In this document: positions 22,676 to 36,562 of the stretch, piece after piece
Numbering within the stretch: position 1 is the stretch's first letter
Layout: each line of letters opens with the position of its first letter
Assembly (NCBI RefSeq): GCF_000147875.1
Contig: NC_014507.1
Span: 992,001 to 1,056,000, forward strand
DNA: 64,000 bases
Source: Methanolacinia petrolearia DSM 11571
GTDB taxonomy: Archaea; Halobacteriota; Methanomicrobia; Methanomicrobiales; Methanomicrobiaceae
Direction: 5' to 3'
Notes under the pieces: generated by a model
Databases searched by the model: none
Told to the model about the DNA's origin: nothing
What the model saw: the letters and a program-made list of their open reading frames with translations, nothing else
Made by a program: the position numbers and the translations under genes

Positions 22676-22748
22676 GCTGATATAGTGTAGGGGCCAATCA
22701 TGCCGGCCTTTCACGCCGGCGACTGGGGTTCAAATCCCCATATCAGCA
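22676..22748 (+). tRNA. tRNA-Glu (anticodon TTC)
   Basis: A full cloverleaf can be drawn. The acceptor stem is GCTGATA (22676-22682) with TATCAGC (22741-22747). The anticodon stem CCGGC/GCCGG surrounds the loop CTTTCAC with anticodon TTC. The T arm is CTGGGGTTCAAATCCCCAT. The discriminator is A and CCA is not encoded. No intron. The PARIS-like gene pair ends just downstream, on the other strand. Confidence 0.95.
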
Positions 22749-22820: not shown

Positions 22821-23813
22821 TCAAATATCTTCTGTTTTAAAAAACGATTTTTCAGTCCCTTTCCTCTGCATCTCCACCCAGGCCTTTATATTACCATACA
22901 AATCCGTTTTATAGAAATCTTCCTCGTCATAGAGCTCTAAGCAAAGCCTTTCAAGATCCCCTAAAACGACTGTTCTGCCGTTTTTCTGCGGATAATTGAT
23001 GTTTATTTCAGACAGGAGCACACACATCAAATCATGCCCGCGGCATATCTGCATAGGATGGTCGAAATATTCTTTCTTTTCAGAGATCTCCTCAGAAAAT
23101 GCAGCCAGAAAGTCTTCAGATTTGGCAGGGTTGCGCCGGCAAATAAATTCCATCAGCTTTTTTTCATTGATACTCAGGGAAGAAGGCTCGGTAAATTCCA
23201 AAAAAATATTCTTCTTCTTGCAGTTGATATGTTTAAAAACCATATTGAGGCCATATTTTTCATTAATATACAGAGATAATCCGATCAGCCGCGAACACTC
23301 GATCAGGCGCCTTAAAATATTTCCGTCCCTTATTCCCTCATTTGTTTTTCTCTGGAAATTACCACCTGCAGAACCTCTCTCGTATCTATTCAAGACCCTT
23401 TCAATCACTTTCTCAGATATTATCATTGTCTCGATATCGTGAGAGTCGGTCATGAAGATATTTTCCGGATCGTTCCCGCTATTTTCATGGAAGAAAGAGA
23501 AATCCCTGTCAACAATTCCAATAAACGAATTCCTCTTCTCATCAGGGACTTCTCCGAGGAGATTGTCTATAATGCGAAATACGTTTTTTTTGGAATTTGC
23601 AAAACGTATTTCACAGGTCTCACGATTAAAAAAACGTGAATAAAACTCATAGTCATAAGGGCCTTCGGTTATGACAAATAATTTTTCCTTCAATGAAGGA
23701 TAGTTTCTCTCCATTTTACGGATGGCACCACCAATTTCATCCGCATTCGCCCAGATCTCCTCCAGTCTGAATCTGCCTTTAGTATTACGAAACCGCATTC
23801 CGGCTTTACTCAT
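22821..23813 (-). CDS. DUF4435 / TOPRIM-type nuclease protein, AriB-like (PARIS-type defence effector)
   Basis: 330 residues. KLFVITEGPYDYEFYSRFF places a Glu (residue 50) and GIVDRDFSFF an Asp pair (102, 104) as in TOPRIM catalytic sites. FMTDSHDIETMII (120-132) is the TDxHDIE pattern of DUF4435 proteins. In the PARIS anti-phage system the ATPase AriA holds and releases the TOPRIM protein AriB, which then cleaves host tRNA. The gene overlaps the upstream ATPase gene by 8 bases and so is translationally coupled. The target of this version is unknown. Confidence 0.8.
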   Translation of the reverse strand: MSKAGMRFRNTKGRFRLEEIWANADEIGGAIRKMERNYPSLKEKLFVITEGPYDYEFYSRFFNRETCEIRFANSKKNVFRIIDNLLGEVPDEKRNSFIGIVDRDFSFFHENSGNDPENIFMTDSHDIETMIISEKVIERVLNRYERGSAGGNFQRKTNEGIRDGNILRRLIECSRLIGLSLYINEKYGLNMVFKHINCKKKNIFLEFTEPSSLSINEKKLMEFICRRNPAKSEDFLAAFSEEISEKKEYFDHPMQICRGHDLMCVLLSEININYPQKNGRTVVLGDLERLCLELYDEEDFYKTDLYGNIKAWVEMQRKGTEKSFFKTEDI

Positions 23814-25557
23814 CGACCCCTTCCCCTGAGAGATCTACTGTACAATCCCAGTTTGTGTGTATAAGTTGTGGCGAATGGGTAGCTATGAGAAAACCGGAGC
23901 CGGTGATACTTGTAATCTTCCTGATGAATTCAAGATAAAGCCTCTGCCATACGATATGCAGTGAGATTTCAGGCTCGTCAACAAGTACAAGAGTCCCCGG
24001 ATCTGTCGAAAATATGAGATCATAATACATCACCAGCTGGTTCTGCTCCCCGGAAGAAAGTTTTTCAGGCGCAACTGGTTCATTATCAGCCACCATGAAA
24101 TTAAATCCCTTATCTGCCCGAATTTCGAATGAAAGATTAAGGAAAAGCGAATTAATTATCATTATTAACAGATCGATCTTTCTTTCAAGATCTCCGAATA
24201 TCAGGCATTTCTTCTCAATATCCTCAGCATAGAGCTGAAGTGCTGCAAGTATCCCTGTATCCCCTTCAATATCCTCTCCGGTTATAAAGTTGTCCTGCCA
24301 TTCTCCCGGCTCATACGACAGGAATCCAACTTCCCTGAGTTTCTTCTGCTCCAGTCTAATCTTTGACAATTTTTCAATAATCTGTTGCGCCCCAGGAAGA
24401 ACGCCATTATCCAATTCCTGGCAGAGATCCATGAACCGTTCAGGATATGTCGAATCAAGTTCCTGTGCACTTGCAGCATAATCATTCAGCATTGCCTGGA
24501 TGCGCATCCTGATATCATCGGAATAGTTGAGAACCGTAAGTTCATAGCTCCGCCTGATCCCCCCTGCATGACTTGCCAGAAGATCTCCCTCCCTAAGTAT
24601 ATCCGATTCGGCATTTTGCCAGAGTCTCTGTGCAGATATAAGTTTTACAGGAACGGGTGGAATAATCCTGCTAAGCTCCCATGAGGTTTCCGCTTCATCA
24701 AAATTGTCAGGATTGACAGTATACTCAAGAACACTGTTGCCGGATTTCTCCAGCCTGAAATTCAATGACCATAAATCACCTACAGGAAGCTTTTTACCCT
24801 GCAATTCTCCTAAACACTTCTCAATAATAAGAGTGGTCATTTTTTCCGGTTCTGATACGGTTCCTGTGATACCGAACAGGATCTTCAGGGCTTTAAAGGG
24901 GATGTCCCTGATTTCACCGAGATTTCCGACAAAGACCGCCCGTAACAGTCTTAAAATTGTCGTCTTTCCATAACCGTTGGGGGCGGTGATTATCGATATA
25001 TTCCCGGGATTTTCCAGCGGAATTCTATAATCAAACTTTCCGAAGAGACCGAAGATCTCTATCTCCAGGGGTTTTATCCTGTTAAAGCGTAAAGGCATGT
25101 CTCTTGTAATCGCATCTGTCAGCCTCCCGAGCATCTCCTCGATGCTCTCCGAATCAGAGAGCGGGTATTCGACCCATTTATCAGCAAAAACCTTTGAGAT
25201 TACATTAACGTATTCAGAATGAAGCTTGTCGCTTCCGAGAAATATCACCCTTTCATAATTCAACAGACCATCTGATTCTGCATTTATCTCTATTGTATCG
25301 TATTCAATTCCCGATCCGGCGAATGTATCTCCTTCATAATTTTTGATCTCCTCATGCGGAAGGACAAAACCGTACCTTGGCGATAGAATCACCCTGTCAT
25401 CAGGATAGAACTTTTTTGAGTACTCACGGCACCTCTCTGCAAATCTGCCTGTGAATGCATATTCAGCCTTAACTTGCCGGGTCAAATCCAGGTTCCTGTC
25501 ACGATCCCAAATTTTCTCCTCACCGGCAGGAGTTATCACCAGGGTTTTTAATGCCAT
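23806..25557 (-). CDS. ABC-type AAA ATPase with DUF6884-like N-terminal domain, AriA-like
   Basis: 583 residues. Residues 1-150 (VITPAGEEKIW, then AFTGRFAERCREYSKKFYPDD and RVILSPRYGFVLPHEEIKNY) resemble the DUF6884 domain. The ATPase follows with Walker A APNGYGKTT (192-200), signature LSSGEQ (500-505), Walker B LVLVDEPE (523-530) and the switch THSPQ (560-564), separated by a helical arm. This is the layout of AAA_15/OLD-like defence ATPases. I do not know of PARIS ATPases carrying this extra N-terminal domain. It is the first gene of a two-gene operon. Confidence 0.8.
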   Translation of the reverse strand: MALKTLVITPAGEEKIWDRDRNLDLTRQVKAEYAFTGRFAERCREYSKKFYPDDRVILSPRYGFVLPHEEIKNYEGDTFAGSGIEYDTIEINAESDGLLNYERVIFLGSDKLHSEYVNVISKVFADKWVEYPLSDSESIEEMLGRLTDAITRDMPLRFNRIKPLEIEIFGLFGKFDYRIPLENPGNISIITAPNGYGKTTILRLLRAVFVGNLGEIRDIPFKALKILFGITGTVSEPEKMTTLIIEKCLGELQGKKLPVGDLWSLNFRLEKSGNSVLEYTVNPDNFDEAETSWELSRIIPPVPVKLISAQRLWQNAESDILREGDLLASHAGGIRRSYELTVLNYSDDIRMRIQAMLNDYAASAQELDSTYPERFMDLCQELDNGVLPGAQQIIEKLSKIRLEQKKLREVGFLSYEPGEWQDNFITGEDIEGDTGILAALQLYAEDIEKKCLIFGDLERKIDLLIMIINSLFLNLSFEIRADKGFNFMVADNEPVAPEKLSSGEQNQLVMYYDLIFSTDPGTLVLVDEPEISLHIVWQRLYLEFIRKITSITGSGFLIATHSPQLIHTNWDCTVDLSGEGVDE

Positions 25558-26841: not shown

Positions 26842-26951
26842 CAGTTCCTTAGATATAAGAAAATAATCCATTAAACATTAACTCAGGAAGGAATTTACAA
26901 TTTGTTGTAATACCGTCCGAAAAAGGCAGAAGTGATCAAAGCCCGAGTCAG

Positions 26952-26960
26952 CTTAAATAG
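26952..26960 (+). promoter_or_regulatory. TATA box of serpin 1
   Basis: CTTAAATAG, preceded by GTCAG, ends 22 bases before the serpin 1 ATG, the same distance as in serpins 2 and 3. Start of transcription should fall at or close to the ATG. Confidence 0.55.
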
Positions 26961-26982: not shown

Positions 26983-28275
26983 ATGGGAGAAAATAATATT
27001 GCTGTACCTGTAATATGCATCCTTCTTGTTTTCTGCATCTTCTTCTCCGGCTGCACGGAACAGGAATCCGTCAATACAACAAAATCAGCAAATGCACTCC
27101 GGGCTGAAGAACAGGGTGTCGCCGCTGAAAACGTGATCGACGCGAACAATATGTTCGCATTCGACATATACAGGCAAATCGCGGCTGAACAAACGGAAGA
27201 TGAAAACATCTTCCTCTCCCCCTTCAGCATTTCATCGGTGTTTGCTCCCGTATATGAAGGAGCAAGGGGGGATACGGCAGATGAGATCGGGTCCGTCTTC
27301 CACTTCCCTGAAAACACCGGTACGCTAAGGGAAGACTACCGGGAGATCAATGAAAAAATAAATACAGGTGATCCCGACTACGAGCTCAGTATTGCAAACG
27401 CACTCTGGGCCGAGAATACATATCCCTTCCTTGAAAGCTACATCAATATCACAAAGGAATACTATTCAGCGAACACCACCACCCTCGACTTCAAAAATCA
27501 TCCCGAAGAAACACGGCTGACGATCAACAACTGGGCAATGGAAAAGACAAAAGACAGGATTCAGGAACTCGTGCCTGCAGGTATGATAGACATTTATACA
27601 AGACTTGTTGTTACAAATGCAATCTTCTTCAAAGGCATATGGGCCAAAAAGTTCGATGAAAACAACACCCTTGAAGCGAATTTTACGACCGCATCAGGAG
27701 AGATTGTAAAAGTCCCGATGATGCAGAAAACGGCAGCATACGATTATGCCGAAACCGATGAACTCCAGGCAGTCAAACTGCCGTACGAGAATGAAACAGG
27801 AAATAAGCTGTCGATGATCGTCATTCTCCCGAAGGAAAACGAACTGCATTCAGTCGAGGAGACTCTCTATTTTAAAAAGATCAGGGAGGTCGAAGATTCG
27901 ATGGGATCAGAAACCGTCAGGCTGTCTTTACCAAAATTCAGGTTTGAAACAGATTATATGTTTTCCGGCATCCTGAAAAAAATGGGTGTCGTAACCGCTT
28001 TTTCAGACGAGGACGCTGATTTTTCCGGTATGGACGGGACAGGAGGATTATATATCCGTGAAGTTATTCACAAGGCATTTGTAGAGGTGAACGAAGAAGG
28101 AACCGAAGCGGCGGCGGCAACGGCAGTTGTAGTACAAACTATTGCTCCTCCGCCGGGATACAGCTTGCCTGTCTATACCTTCAGGGCCGATCACCCGTTC
28201 ATCTTCCTGATAGAGGATGACGAAACAGGTAATATTCTCTTTATCGGCAGGGTCTCAAATCCCTTAGAAAACTAA
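26983..28275 (+). CDS. Serpin 1, secreted lipoprotein protease inhibitor
   Basis: 430 residues. A hydrophobic N-terminal segment ends in FFSGC, a lipobox-like site, so the protein is probably anchored outside the cell. The serpin core has NALWAENTYPFL and TNAIFFKGIWAKKFD, and the hinge EEGTEAAAATA of inhibitory serpins. Counting as in alpha-1-antitrypsin, the reactive site would be Ile (P1) followed by Ala, with QTIAPPPGYSLP as the loop. ATG 26983 fits the signal peptide; an upstream GTG does not. First of three tandem copies and the most divergent. Confidence 0.9.
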   Translation: MGENNIAVPVICILLVFCIFFSGCTEQESVNTTKSANALRAEEQGVAAENVIDANNMFAFDIYRQIAAEQTEDENIFLSPFSISSVFAPVYEGARGDTADEIGSVFHFPENTGTLREDYREINEKINTGDPDYELSIANALWAENTYPFLESYINITKEYYSANTTTLDFKNHPEETRLTINNWAMEKTKDRIQELVPAGMIDIYTRLVVTNAIFFKGIWAKKFDENNTLEANFTTASGEIVKVPMMQKTAAYDYAETDELQAVKLPYENETGNKLSMIVILPKENELHSVEETLYFKKIREVEDSMGSETVRLSLPKFRFETDYMFSGILKKMGVVTAFSDEDADFSGMDGTGGLYIREVIHKAFVEVNEEGTEAAAATAVVVQTIAPPPGYSLPVYTFRADHPFIFLIEDDETGNILFIGRVSNPLEN

Positions 28276-28280
28276 CCATA

Positions 28281-28287
28281 TTTTTTT
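28281..28287 (+). terminator. Oligo-T terminator after serpin 1
   Basis: Seven T residues follow the stop codon before the next serpin's own promoter, suggesting separate transcripts. Confidence 0.4.
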
Positions 28288-28333
28288 CATATAACCGTGA
28301 ATAACTGCGAAAAAAATCGAAGTCAACGCCAGA

Positions 28334-28342
28334 TTAAATAAA
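28334..28342 (+). promoter_or_regulatory. TATA box of serpin 2, within a block shared with serpin 3
   Basis: TTAAATAAA ends 22 bases before the ATG. The preceding bases (CTGCGAAAAAAA, then GAAGTCAACGCCAG) are nearly identical upstream of serpin 3. Confidence 0.65.
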
Positions 28343-28363
28343 AATCAGAATAAAAGGACAGTT

Positions 28364-29662
28364 ATGAATATCAAATCTATCGTACCTTTTGCTGTTGTCA
28401 TGCTGGCATGCCTCTTCTGTGTTTTTGCAGGATGTACGGGAACACCCGGTTCTGACGGGACGGAGACGGCGACACCAACACCCACGCAGAGCGTATCACA
28501 TACAGGCTCTGCCGTAGAGAGCGTTGTTGACGCAAACAACATGTTCGCATTCGAGATATATAAGCAGCTCTCCGGTGAGAACAGCAAAGACGACAACCTC
28601 TTCCTGTCGCCGTTCAGCATATCGTCGGCACTTGCCCTGACATATGAAGGCGCGAAGGGAGAGACGGCAGACCAGATAAAGTCCGTCTTCTACTTCCCTG
28701 ACAACATTGAGACCTTAAGAAGCGGCTACCAGGAAGTAAATGCCGGAATAAACGCAGGAGATCCCGAATACGATCTCGAAGTCGCAAACGCACTCTGGGC
28801 CGAAGAGACCTACCCGTTCCTCAAGGAATACATCAACACGGCAAAGACATACTACTCGGCTAATACGACAAACCTCGATTTCATAAATCAGCCCGAAGAA
28901 TCTCGTGTCAGCATAAACGACTGGGTCGCAGAGAAAACGAACGACAAGATCGAAGACTTAATTCCCGAAGGAATGATCGATTCGATGACGAGACTCGTCA
29001 TAACGAATGCGATATACTTCAAGGGAACGTGGGTTCTCCAGTTCGACAAAAACATGACGACGGAAGCGGACTTTACAACACCGTCCGGCGAAACAGTCAC
29101 AGTAGAAATGATGAAGAGGACCGATGATGACGCAGTCTACGGCTATACAGAGACCGACGGCCTCCAGGTCCTGGAGATGCCATACGAGAATGAAAGCGGA
29201 AAGAAACTCTCGATGATCGTCCTTCTCCCGAAGGAGAACGACCTGAAAGCGGCAGAAGATGCTCTCAGCGCTGATAACTTTGAGGAGATTGAAAACTCGA
29301 TAAAATCAAAGCAGGTAAAGGTATACTTCCCCAAATTCAAACTCGAAACAGAATACCTGCTGCGTGATATCCTGATCGATATAGGAATGCCTGCTGCATT
29401 CTCCGGTTCGGCAAACTTCTCGGGAATGGACGGGACTACAAATCTCTTCATCAGCAATGTCGTGCACAAGGCCTTCGTCGAGGTAAACGAAGAAGGAACC
29501 GAAGCGGCAGCGGCAACGGCAGTAGTAATGGCATCAGGAATGTCTCCGGAAAAAGAGCCGATACCTGTCTTCAGGGCGGATCATTCGTTCATCTTCATGA
29601 TACAGGACGATGAAACAGGGAATATTCTGTTCATCGGCAGGATTTCAAATCCCGCAGAATAA
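28364..29662 (+). CDS. Serpin 2, secreted lipoprotein protease inhibitor
   Basis: 432 residues. The signal sequence ends CVFAGC (lipobox), then a Thr/Pro-rich linker (TETATPTPTQ) that would hold the serpin off the membrane. The core has LFLSPFSISSALALTYEGAK and TNAIYFKGTWVLQFD; the hinge is EEGTEAAAATA. The loop runs VVMASGMSPEKEP, giving Gly at P1 and Met at P1' by the antitrypsin count. It is very close to serpin 3 at the DNA level in long stretches, implying recent duplication or gene conversion, while the loop differs. Confidence 0.92.
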   Translation: MNIKSIVPFAVVMLACLFCVFAGCTGTPGSDGTETATPTPTQSVSHTGSAVESVVDANNMFAFEIYKQLSGENSKDDNLFLSPFSISSALALTYEGAKGETADQIKSVFYFPDNIETLRSGYQEVNAGINAGDPEYDLEVANALWAEETYPFLKEYINTAKTYYSANTTNLDFINQPEESRVSINDWVAEKTNDKIEDLIPEGMIDSMTRLVITNAIYFKGTWVLQFDKNMTTEADFTTPSGETVTVEMMKRTDDDAVYGYTETDGLQVLEMPYENESGKKLSMIVLLPKENDLKAAEDALSADNFEEIENSIKSKQVKVYFPKFKLETEYLLRDILIDIGMPAAFSGSANFSGMDGTTNLFISNVVHKAFVEVNEEGTEAAAATAVVMASGMSPEKEPIPVFRADHSFIFMIQDDETGNILFIGRISNPAE

Positions 29663-29736
29663 GATACTCTTTTATTTTTACATTGTTTCCTTCCCGTTCA
29701 TTGTTAACTGCGAAAAAAACTGAAGTCAACGCCAGG

Positions 29737-29745
29737 TTAAATAAA
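29737..29745 (+). promoter_or_regulatory. TATA box of serpin 3
   Basis: TTAAATAAA ends 22 bases before the ATG, within the same conserved block as in front of serpin 2. No ribosome binding site is visible before this ATG, which fits a leaderless transcript. Confidence 0.65.
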
Positions 29746-29766
29746 CCATAACACCAATAATCTGCC

Positions 29767-31068
29767 ATGAAGCACCTTAAACCGACGGCCATAACGGCCA
29801 TTTTTCTGGTAATTCTGTGTACTTTTTTGGCAGGATGCACCGGAACACCCGATTCTGCAGGGACAGAGACGGCAACGCCCACTCCGGTACAGAATGTAAC
29901 CGAAACAGGTTCGGCAGTCGAAAGCGTAGTCGATGCAAACGACATGTTCGCATTCGACATCTATAAGAAACTGGCATCAGAAGAAAGCAAGGACGACAAT
30001 CTCTTCCTGTCGCCGTTCAGCATATCGTCGGCACTTGCCCTGACATACGAAGGGGCGAAGGGGGAGACGGCAGACCAGATTAAGTCGGTCTTCTACTTCC
30101 CTGAAAATATCGACACCCTGAGATGTGGCTACCAGGACGTAAATGCCGGAATAAACGCAGGCGATCCCGATTATGAACTCAGCATCGCAAATGCACTCTG
30201 GGCCGAAGAGACCTACCCTTTCCTAGAGGACTACATCAATACGGCCGAGACGTACTACTCGGCCAATACTACAAACCTCGACTTCATAAACCAGCCCGAA
30301 GAGTCCCGTGTTACCATAAACGACTGGGTCGCAGGGAAGACGAACAACAAGATCGAAGACCTGATCCCTGAGGGAATGATCGATTCGATGACAAGGCTCG
30401 TCATAACGAATGCAATCTACTTTAAGGGTACATGGGTTCTCCAGTTCGATAAGAACATGACGACGGAGGCGGACTTTACGACACCGTCCGGCGAAACAGT
30501 CACAGTAGAAATGATGCAGAGAACGGACGATGACGCAATTTACGGCTATTCTGAAACCGACGACCTCCAGGTACTTGAGATGCCATACGAGAATGAAAGC
30601 GGAAAGAAACTCTCGATGATCGTCCTTCTCCCGAAGGAGAACGACCTGAAGGCGGCAGAAGATGTTCTGACCGAAGACAAGTTTAAAGAGATAACCGGTT
30701 CGATAGAATCGCAGCAGGTGAAGGTATACTTCCCCAAGTTCAAACTCGAAACGGAATACCAGCTCTCAGACACCTTAAGCGAAATGGGAATGCCGGTGGC
30801 GTTCACGGGCTCGGCCGACTTTTCCGGCATGGACGGAACAACAGGCCTGTCTATCAGCGATGTAGTCCATAAGGCATATGTCGAGGTGAACGAGGAAGGA
30901 ACGGAAGCTGCAGCTGCTACAGCTGTTGTAATGAGACTCACTGCAGTGGCAGGTGAAGATATTACCCCGGTCTTTGTTGCGGATCACCCGTTCATCTTCA
31001 TGATACAGGACGACGAAACAGGAAATATCCTGTTTATCGGAAGGATCTCAAACCCGTCTTCAGCCTGA
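29767..31068 (+). CDS. Serpin 3, secreted lipoprotein protease inhibitor
   Basis: 433 residues, with a signal ending TFLAGC and a Thr/Pro linker like serpin 2. The core sequence is almost that of serpin 2. The hinge is again EEGTEAAAATA, but the loop reads VVMRLTAVAGEDITP, so P3 is Arg and the predicted P1-P1' pair is Thr-Ala; a shift of two residues would make it Arg. The different loop suggests a different target protease. Bacterial and archaeal serpins are uncommon, and three side by side is unusual. Confidence 0.92.
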   Translation: MKHLKPTAITAIFLVILCTFLAGCTGTPDSAGTETATPTPVQNVTETGSAVESVVDANDMFAFDIYKKLASEESKDDNLFLSPFSISSALALTYEGAKGETADQIKSVFYFPENIDTLRCGYQDVNAGINAGDPDYELSIANALWAEETYPFLEDYINTAETYYSANTTNLDFINQPEESRVTINDWVAGKTNNKIEDLIPEGMIDSMTRLVITNAIYFKGTWVLQFDKNMTTEADFTTPSGETVTVEMMQRTDDDAIYGYSETDDLQVLEMPYENESGKKLSMIVLLPKENDLKAAEDVLTEDKFKEITGSIESQQVKVYFPKFKLETEYQLSDTLSEMGMPVAFTGSADFSGMDGTTGLSISDVVHKAYVEVNEEGTEAAAATAVVMRLTAVAGEDITPVFVADHPFIFMIQDDETGNILFIGRISNPSSA

Positions 31069-34674: not shown

Positions 34675-35370
34675 ATGACACTTGAAGATATTGTTGAAAT
34701 TGCATATCCCCAGCAGCCGCACTGCCCGACGATCCTGATACTCGACACATCGGGATCGATGATGGTGAATGACAAAATAGCCAAGCTGAATGAAGGGATT
34801 GCACTGTTTAAAGATGAGATCGGGAAGGACGAACTTGCCAGGAAAAGAGTCGACCTTGCGGTTCTGAGTTTCGGCCAGAAAGTAAACGTGATCCAGGACT
34901 TTACATCCATAGAGGAGTTTGAACCGGAAGAGCTCGTTGCCGACGGTCTGACCCCGATGGGGGAGGCAATTAAAAAAGCCGTTGAGATGCTCGGCAGCAG
35001 GAAAGACGAGTACAAGAAAGAGGGGATCGACTACTACAGGCCGTGGATCTTCCTGATAACGGACGGAGAGCCTACCGATATGTACGAGGGCGACGAGATG
35101 TGGAAGGAAGTCACGAATCTAGTCCATGAAGGTGAAAAAGCCGGGAAATTCCTCTTCTTTGCAGTGGGCGTGGAGGATGCGGATCTTGAGACACTCGCAA
35201 AGATCGCACCCCCGACAAGGACGCCCGTAAAACTGAAGGACAACAACTTCAAAGACATGTTCCTCTGGCTCTCGAAGAGTCAGGCGAAGGTCTCTGCCTC
35301 CGGTGTCGGGGAGCAGATCGTCCTCGAAGACCCGATAATGTTTGGCTGGGCTGAGATTCCTACATTCTGA
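34675..35370 (+). CDS. von Willebrand factor A-domain protein, TerY-like
   Basis: 231 residues forming one vWA domain. The metal-ion-dependent adhesion site is ILDTSGSMMVND (Asp24, Ser26, Ser28), with a further conserved Thr in GLTPMGEAIKKA and Asp in ITDGEPTDMYEGD. The ATG is preceded by GGGAGAA. TerY-like vWA proteins accompany a PP2C phosphatase and a protein kinase in so-called TerY-P triads linked to tellurite and stress responses. Both partners follow after a repeat-filled gap of 406 bases. Confidence 0.88.
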   Translation: MTLEDIVEIAYPQQPHCPTILILDTSGSMMVNDKIAKLNEGIALFKDEIGKDELARKRVDLAVLSFGQKVNVIQDFTSIEEFEPEELVADGLTPMGEAIKKAVEMLGSRKDEYKKEGIDYYRPWIFLITDGEPTDMYEGDEMWKEVTNLVHEGEKAGKFLFFAVGVEDADLETLAKIAPPTRTPVKLKDNNFKDMFLWLSKSQAKVSASGVGEQIVLEDPIMFGWAEIPTF

Positions 35371-35372
35371 TC

Positions 35373-35389
35373 TTTTTTTGGATTTTTTT
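35373..35389 (+). terminator. Double oligo-T terminator after the vWA gene
   Basis: Two runs of seven T (35373-35379 and 35383-35389) lie right after the vWA stop, so part of its transcription may stop before the phosphatase gene. Confidence 0.45.
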
Positions 35390-35439
35390 CTTCTCTCAAC
35401 TATTTTTGAAATTCAAAGAATAATGGATTAATTGGTAAA

Positions 35440-35630
35440 GGGAGGGGGAAGTTTCCCCCTCCCTTTCACCCACCCCCTCATGGCGATATTGTCGCCGACC
35501 GAAGGGCTATCGCCCTTTCGAAACCTAATCCCATATACAAGGGAGGAGGATGTTTCCCCCTCCCTGTGACCCACTCCCTCATCGCGATAAGTCGCAGAAG
35601 GGATGGACGAACATCCCTTCAGCTCCTCTT
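35440..35630 (+). repeat. GC-rich hairpin repeat, family II, copy 3 (tandem pair of one block)
   Basis: The gap between the vWA and phosphatase genes contains two tandem, imperfect copies of the pyrimidine/purine hairpin block. The first is GGGAGGGGGAA/TTCCCCCTCCC near 35441-35464. The second starts near 35540 and ends with GGGATG/CATCCC. The cloverleaf-like block of copies 1 and 2 is absent. I see no gene here; the phosphatase promoter must lie in the last 140 bases. Confidence 0.7.
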
Positions 35631-35776
35631 TTCTTCACCAAGTTAAGAAAACGGAAGAATTGCCCGCTCCGTTACAAAAACATTCCGAAGAAAAAAATCA
35701 CAATATTTTATCCGCGATAAAAAACAGAGTATTACAATATAACACCTGAAATCATCAATATAAGGACAAATTACCA

Positions 35777-36562
35777 ATGCCCGTCTTCGGAGGAAAAACG
35801 ACAGGGAGCTCGCATATAAAAAAAGGTGTTCCCTGTCAGGATGCATTTCGCAGCGAAAAGATCGACAGCGGAGAGATCATCGTAGCTGTTGCCGACGGCC
35901 TGGGCAGTGCGGAACATTCGGAGATCGGTGCAAAAATTGCAGTAAATACTGCTGTAGACAAGATAAAATCTCTTTTCACAAACATTGACGGGTATGGAAT
36001 CCCTGCCGCAGCCCTGATGAAAAACCGGGATATAATAGCGGAAGCATTCTCTGCCTCAAGAACCGCACTAGAGGATTTTGCCGGAGATAACGGGTACCCA
36101 CTGAGAAAACTGGCATGCACCCTGATTGTAGCATTTACCTGGGAAGGCTATCTGACAACCGGCCATATCGGCGATGGTGCCGTGACTGCACTGATCGAAG
36201 ACGAGATCAGGATAATCTCAGATCCCGGCAACTCGGAATATGTAAACGAGGTAACTCCTCTGACTTCCGGGAAGATAGAAGATAATATCAGGATAAATGA
36301 AAATATCCCGGATGTCAGAGTATTCGCGGCATTTACCGACGGATGCCAGCGGGCATTTTTAGTGAGAAAAAACGGGGAATATCTCCCATATGAACCTTTT
36401 TTCCGGCCGATCTTCACCTATGCAAAAGATGTAGCTGATGAAGAAGAAGCATCAGGAGAGATCGTCAGGTTCCTTGAATCGGATAAGATGAATGAAAACT
36501 CCGATGATGACAAGACACTTGTAATAGCCGTTCCTGAAAAAGGGGAGGATCACCCCGTATGA
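35777..36562 (+). CDS. PP2C-family serine/threonine phosphatase, TerY-P triad
   Basis: 261 residues. GVPCQDAF, VAVADGLGSAEHSEIGA, LTTGHIGDGAVTAL and VFAAFTDGCQRA hold the acidic metal ligands of PP2C phosphatases in order, and DDDKTLVIA the last one. It would remove phosphates placed by the neighbouring kinase. The gene overlaps the kinase start by 4 bases (ATGA), so the two are made together. Confidence 0.9.
   Translation: MPVFGGKTTGSSHIKKGVPCQDAFRSEKIDSGEIIVAVADGLGSAEHSEIGAKIAVNTAVDKIKSLFTNIDGYGIPAAALMKNRDIIAEAFSASRTALEDFAGDNGYPLRKLACTLIVAFTWEGYLTTGHIGDGAVTALIEDEIRIISDPGNSEYVNEVTPLTSGKIEDNIRINENIPDVRVFAAFTDGCQRAFLVRKNGEYLPYEPFFRPIFTYAKDVADEEEASGEIVRFLESDKMNENSDDDKTLVIAVPEKGEDHPV

Follow-up and report, generated by a model that had tools for sequence, protein, structure and literature searches.

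The three tandem serpin genes of Methanolacinia petrolearia DSM 11571 are best explained as coding for regulated, surface-anchored suicide protease inhibitors with separate fixed targets, a reading to which a probability of about 0.6 is assigned. The genes, referred to as S1, S2, and S3, are complete, occupy positions 26983-31068 on the plus strand of the window (the whole stretch of 64,000 nucleotides that was analysed), and show changes in their reactive loops that fit a switch of the bait after duplication followed by purifying selection, rather than an arms race.

The serpin array and its products

The source genome, assembled as one contig of 2,843,290 bases, codes for no serpin outside this trio. 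As originally predicted, the array consists of three tandem lipoprotein serpins: each product covers positions 2-370 of the 370 in the PF00079 profile and carries the signal peptide and lipobox cysteine that mark archaeal lipoproteins (Table 1). The full-length domain places all three in the serpin family (PF00079, MEROPS I4), in line with AlphaFold2 models of S1 (pLDDT 82.0) and S2 (pLDDT 77.7), whose best Foldseek matches are serpins (8e-44 and 1.3e-38, respectively) and whose top matches are serpins throughout, while the best PDB match of S3 is leukocyte elastase inhibitor (1.4e-87). On every sequence test, S1-S3 are ordinary serpins. The models place the hinge in a strand, as in a relaxed-like form, and are uninformative on activity.

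The hinge motif of inhibitory serpins is ExGTEAAAA (PMC8233489), and the inhibitory consensus E-E-G-T-E-A-A-A-A-T is found at P17-P8 of S1, S2, and S3. The hinge and loop strings quoted in the original prediction occur exactly in the sequence, and the bait loops are wholly different among the three proteins. The predicted P1 residues (Ile in S1, Gly in S2, and Thr in S3) agree with the usual count of 17 residues, a rule whose result is uncertain by about one position because family members differ in loop length by one to several residues. Export and lipidation, and with them a surface location, are predicted for all three; LAGC, present in S3, is the commonest haloarchaeal lipobox (PMC2945643), and under a strict rule a lipobox is found in 108 of 140 serpins of the order.

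For S1, a start at the ATG at 26983 is supported by a TTAAATA box that lies about 24 nt upstream, as one does in S2 and S3, the distance from box to ATG being about 24-30 nt in the three genes. The presence of such a box before each gene suggests separate, probably leaderless transcripts. Elsewhere in the window, an ATPase-like gene lies with a partner beside tRNA-Glu (22676-22748), the two resembling a defence-type pair (22821-25557); all that was found at their place in the congener G112 is a trace of one of them, 75 residues long and 47% identical. VWA-domain and PP2C-like genes (34675-36562) adjoin UDP-sugar genes and are conserved beside the serpin locus of G112.

Table 1. Features of the serpin array, in window positions; promoter and operator elements are putative.
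Feature	Positions	Strand	Basis or remark
S1, degenerate operator-like element	26914..26933	+	4 mismatches; spacing 49 not 40 nt
S1, TATA-like box TTAAATA	26953..26959	+	sequence
S1 (serpin 1), lipoprotein, 430 aa	26983..28275	+	PF00079 E = 2.6e-117
S1, lipobox FSGC	27043..27054	+	sequence; hydrophobic stretch then Cys
S1, hinge P17-P7 EEGTEAAAATA	28093..28125	+	0 nonsynonymous, 3 synonymous changes vs sister species
S1, bait P3-P6' QTIAPPPGY	28135..28161	+	identical in sister species
S2, palindromic operator	28304..28323	+	exact match
S2, TATA-like box TTAAATA	28334..28340	+	sequence; suggests leaderless mRNA
S2 (serpin 2), lipoprotein, 432 aa	28364..29662	+	PF00079 E = 8.1e-122
S2, lipobox FAGC	28424..28435	+	sequence
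S2, hinge P17-P7 EEGTEAAAATA	29489..29521	+	sequence
S2, bait P3-P6' ASGMSPEKE	29531..29557	+	protein identical in sister species; pN 0.746 vs S3
S3, palindromic operator	29707..29726	+	2 mismatches (1 in sister species)
S3, TATA-like box TTAAATA	29737..29743	+	sequence; suggests leaderless mRNA
S3 (serpin 3), lipoprotein, 433 aa, ancestral-type bait	29767..31068	+	PF00079 E = 3.2e-122
S3, lipobox LAGC	29827..29838	+	sequence
S3, hinge P17-P7 EEGTEAAAATA	30892..30924	+	sequence
S3, bait P3-P6' RLTAVAGED	30934..30960	+	protein identical in sister species

Divergence and conservation of the baits

The sister species (G111) carries the same three serpins in the same place, the array being flanked in both genomes by a flavoprotein-like gene on one side and by CorA-like and sugar-nucleotide genes on the other, while the congener G112 has a single serpin between the same neighbours, with the S3-type bait KLTAV. 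Since S3-like [KR]LTAV baits are present in G112 and also in G097, G119, and G120, S3 keeps the ancestral bait, and the single serpin of G112 indicates that the array grew by tandem duplication, with baits that switched early and then froze. Origin by duplication, as had been proposed, is thus borne out, also by the clade of S2 and S3 (support 99/98); the S1/T1 lineage sits on a long stem (0.45) with an unsettled position in the tree, and a clade of S1, S2, and S3 is not rejected (p-AU 0.2). The claim that S2 and S3 are nearly identical in long DNA stretches holds for the gene middle, where identity is mostly 83-99% per 25-codon window and the longest identical run measures 74 nt, and fails for the N-terminus, the pre-hinge region, and the loop, which are about 47-80% identical. 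Between S3 orthologs, dS falls from 0.44 in the middle to 0.15 in front of the hinge; alignment positions 500-790 hold few orthology-informative sites (500, 521, 610, 671), comparable with both other patterns, as against 155 orthology, 5 paralogy, and 10 third-pattern sites over the whole alignment. These features fit homogenisation of S2 and S3 by gene conversion that would have been confined to the middle.

The predicted excess of loop change over the body was found between the paralogs. Specifically, pN between S2 and S3 is 0.746 at P3-P6', i.e., at the random level, compared with 0.146 in the pre-hinge region, 0.095 at the C-terminus, and 0 in the hinge. On the S2/S3 stems, amino-acid changes affect 10 of 17 loop sites and 27 of 364 body sites (Fisher p 2.7e-7), whereas on the tips they affect 4 of 17 and 52 of 364 sites (p 0.29), with none within P3-P6', so that stem and tip differ (interaction p 0.016); these tests involve small counts and treat sites as independent, and restricting the body to parts without conversion signature gives a similar stem contrast (10/17 vs 17/144, p 3e-5; interaction p 0.03). 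Between the source genome and its sister species, on the other hand, the 27 codons for P3-P6' of the three genes show 0 nonsynonymous and 4 synonymous changes, which lends no support to the suggestion of ongoing diversifying selection on target choice. Change compared along the alignment with a focus on the loop, the kind of check put forward, shows an excess between S2 and S3 and none between species.

Across the order, serpins above the cut-off are present in 109 of 232 genomes, and the loops of 140 genes were compared. The eight pairs from within one genome whose bodies are 80-95% identical have 0-17% of P3-P3' in common (one pair reaches 33% when the shift is allowed more freely), while between-genome pairs have bin means of 56-92%. 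When matched for body identity, loop sharing in 42 within-genome pairs is 0.20 versus 0.39 (0/10000 resamples), although the pairs are non-independent, genus g19 supplies many of them, and paralog bodies that undergo gene conversion can seem younger than they are. Among same-genus pairs only, the contrast is 0.14 versus 0.65 at 80-90% body identity and is weak or measure-dependent in genera g40 and g34. Since the loop is not unusually variable among g19 orthologs either, duplicates differ while orthologs mostly keep their baits. Two loop classes, with a hydrophobic P2 or with a small/basic core, are paired within genomes in 25 of 42 cases against 16 expected, a count that is exploratory only, the class rule having been revised after the first result.

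Other serpins of the order depart from the common type. Genus g19 has a second one (L045, L053, L040, L044, L051, L047, L049, and L037:9157-10596) whose bait loop (..GVVVGGGVAPVFRADHPF) is about six residues shorter and whose membrane anchor has no clear lipobox. In G147 (L034:16042-17625) and G102 (L081:14521-15969), serpin genes are split by an in-frame TAG and are pseudogenes or sequencing errors, and G104 contains nine serpin fragments.

Loops that remain under diversifying selection against changing foreign proteases would account for the extreme paralog difference in many genomes and for the several P1 residues (K/A/T/V) at one position among g19 orthologs. Such an arms race is nevertheless improbable and already contradicted at the species level by the identity of all three baits in the sister species, a loop dN of 0 between G119 and G120, and tip changes without loop enrichment; no excess of bait change between orthologs was found, and an arms race at P1 was rejected with 30 orthologs of the single genus g19, among which the P1 column ranks at the 76th percentile of all columns. 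Loss of constraint after duplication, leaving the serpins as substrates, decoys, or non-inhibitory proteins, would explain why S2 and S3 differ at the random level in P3-P6'; it is most improbable, as these codons keep their amino acids from one species to the other although synonymous sites have changed, the hinge hardly varies, and the pattern is repeated in many genera. A separate question is whether the S2 bait was acquired ready-made by ectopic recombination with another serpin gene, which would be compatible with the main function. This is possible, though hardly the likelier route: S2 and S3 differ at nine contiguous residues, their middle bears a conversion signature, and a loop of similar type occurs elsewhere (GRGMSP in G071), but no gene with a matching DNA block that could have served as donor came to light, and similarity over such a short loop may be convergence.

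A palindromic element upstream of the serpin genes

A conserved element precedes the serpin genes, and its 5' part is a 20-bp palindrome, ACTNCGA-N6-TCGNAGT, that lies 40 nt before the start of S2 and S3 and may function as an operator. When up to three mismatches are allowed, 71 of 107 serpin upstream regions contain it, in 19 genera (shuffles: mean 2.75, maximum 6), and in 68 of these 71 it ends 39-41 nt before the ATG; the 39-nt upstream profile, drawn from 18 genera, has an information content of 36 bits, some of which is due to TATA. Base covariation between the palindrome arms is not significant at the serpin sites (position 4/17, p 0.42), and a covariation claim for operator position 4 was dropped for this reason. 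Because the S1 element is degenerate and that of S3 has two mismatches, joint regulation of all three genes has candidate status.

In the source genome, the putative operator at first seemed unique to serpins, a view abandoned when a looser model found it at SIMPL and other genes. The serpin-site matrix scores 5-31 upstream of readable SIMPL genes, the 99.99 percentile of the background being 1.5; the SIMPL gene (PF04402) of the source genome (L152, G000:C1:782371-782997) is preceded by the operator-like ACTTCAGTTTTTTTCGAAGT with a score of 5.0, an imperfect match like the S3 site. An order-wide search for the palindrome plus YAA, with at most one mismatch, returned 170 of 232 genomes (42 with the reversed pattern). 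At 30 operator loci, a sample taken in listing order and not at random, the genes starting just downstream include serpins, SIMPL (PF04402), and beta-propeller (PF09826) genes, together with a chagasin-type I42 lipoprotein (PF09394), a DUF333 lipoprotein, and Cys-rich lipoproteins, while some of the loci have no such gene. Specifically, the chagasin-type cysteine-protease inhibitor of G008 (L188:1066-1464; 8.8e-29) lies directly behind the operator, as do PF09826 proteins in genera g10, g14, g34, and g40 (L138, L142, L183, and L189), PF09826 being absent from the source genome as far as found. By eye, the proteins coded downstream have hydrophobic N-termini or lipoboxes.

The palindrome is hence found at a fixed promoter spacing before unrelated genes, i.e., those for serpins, SIMPL, I42, beta-propeller, and DUF333 proteins. 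Its occurrence before S2, S3, and genes for exported proteins throughout the order hints that the order has a conserved programme protecting the cell surface from proteases. More tentatively, and at somewhat less than even odds, the Methanomicrobiales may possess an undescribed order-wide regulon in which one regulator, acting on ACTNCGA-N6-TCGNAGT about 40 nt before leaderless starts, would jointly control exported serpins, the chagasin-type inhibitor, SIMPL/YggE, and beta-propeller lipoproteins as an archaeal extracellular anti-proteolysis or envelope-stress response, its serpin module having diversified by "duplicate, switch bait, then lock".

Proposed function and relation to known serpins

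In the proposed mechanism, each serpin would be exported, lipid-anchored at its lipobox cysteine, and displayed with an insertion-competent hinge, and a protease cutting the bait would be trapped covalently upon insertion of the hinge into sheet A. From one ancestral serpin carrying a [KR]LTAV bait, tandem duplication would have produced S3, which kept the bait, S2, in which P3-P6' was replaced, and S1, an older or faster-evolving copy. The early switch would have been followed by strong purifying selection on each bait, which makes it very probable that every gene has a stable target class of its own. Gene conversion may have maintained the similarity of S2 and S3 in the middle and left the baits intact. 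The operator lies just upstream of the TATA box in S2, S3, and the SIMPL gene of the source genome, so that induction or derepression of the inhibitors together with other exported proteins is probable, a response that might be triggered by an envelope under attack or stress. The genes, their hinge and lipobox, the switch and lock of the baits, and the conservation of the operator are seen in the sequences; export, lipidation, inhibition, targets, regulator, and signal are what we infer for S1-S3.

The targets could alternatively be endogenous, each serpin restraining an exported surface protease of the cell itself. There are archaeal precedents: in a sponge-symbiont archaeon, serpins lie beside S8 proteases and control of the cell's own endopeptidases was suggested (PMC6790972), and Pnserpin was tested on a native chymotrypsin-like protease (PMC5297747). 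Locked baits would suit a fixed target, and the source genome codes for an exported, C-terminally membrane-anchored S8-family protein of 836 aa (L134, G000:C1:789304-789678), which is a possible own target or an inactive homologue. Self-protection is nonetheless doubtful, because none of the neighbouring genes that were read was recognised as coding for a protease, only a single exported S8 protein turned up against three baits, and it matches only the C-terminal half of the S8 profile (157-288 of 288); co-occurrence of serpins and subtilases over 232 genomes, also considered, is not significant (odds ratio 1.47, p 0.15). On these grounds (no protease recognised among the neighbouring genes read, no association with S8, and a single partial match), the balance tips slightly towards foreign extracellular proteases, rather than those of the cell itself, as targets of the surface-anchored inhibitors; that they would come from competing or predatory cells, as first suggested, is a guess.

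Like the inhibitory archaeal serpins of Group S (Tk-serpin, Pnserpin, and aeropin; PMC8233489), S1-S3 combine the full fold with the hinge ExGTEAAAA, and they differ from them by their lipoprotein signals, tandem arrangement, and three unrelated baits. Their export and lipobox signals also set them apart from the hub-like prokaryotic serpins, for which Spence et al. 2021 proposed intracellular, housekeeping roles (PMC8233489). The sponge-symbiont thaumarchaeon Ca. N. ianthellae likewise has several serpins in one genome, many predicted to be extracellular, but there the genes frequently adjoin S8 proteases and are tied to an animal host (PMC6790972), whereas S1-S3 have no recognised adjacent protease and belong to an isolate from an oil well. 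With the woodrat SERPINA3 (PMC12646145) and SERPINB3/B4 (PMC4136820) arrays, S1-S3 share tandem duplication and subsequent functional divergence; in rodent arrays, however, rapid birth-death and diversifying selection are reported, while the baits of S1-S3 froze after the switch. Bacterial miropin and bifidobacterial serpins are exported inhibitors of environmental proteases (PMC8233489), as proposed here for S1-S3, although their known targets are host proteases. As far as the open-access subset of the literature that was searched shows, so that earlier descriptions may exist, lipoprotein tandem arrays with baits that switch and then lock in methanogens, together with a common operator, are new.

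What serpins do in free-living prokaryotes is recognised as an unanswered question (PMC8233489). A whole archaeal order now offers a testable pattern, in which duplicates gain new baits that are then fixed, and its serpins carry surface-anchoring signals and are linked by a conserved operator to other exported proteins. Three natural baits on one scaffold, the operator, and the candidate co-regulated genes provide handles on the targets and timing of archaeal serpins.
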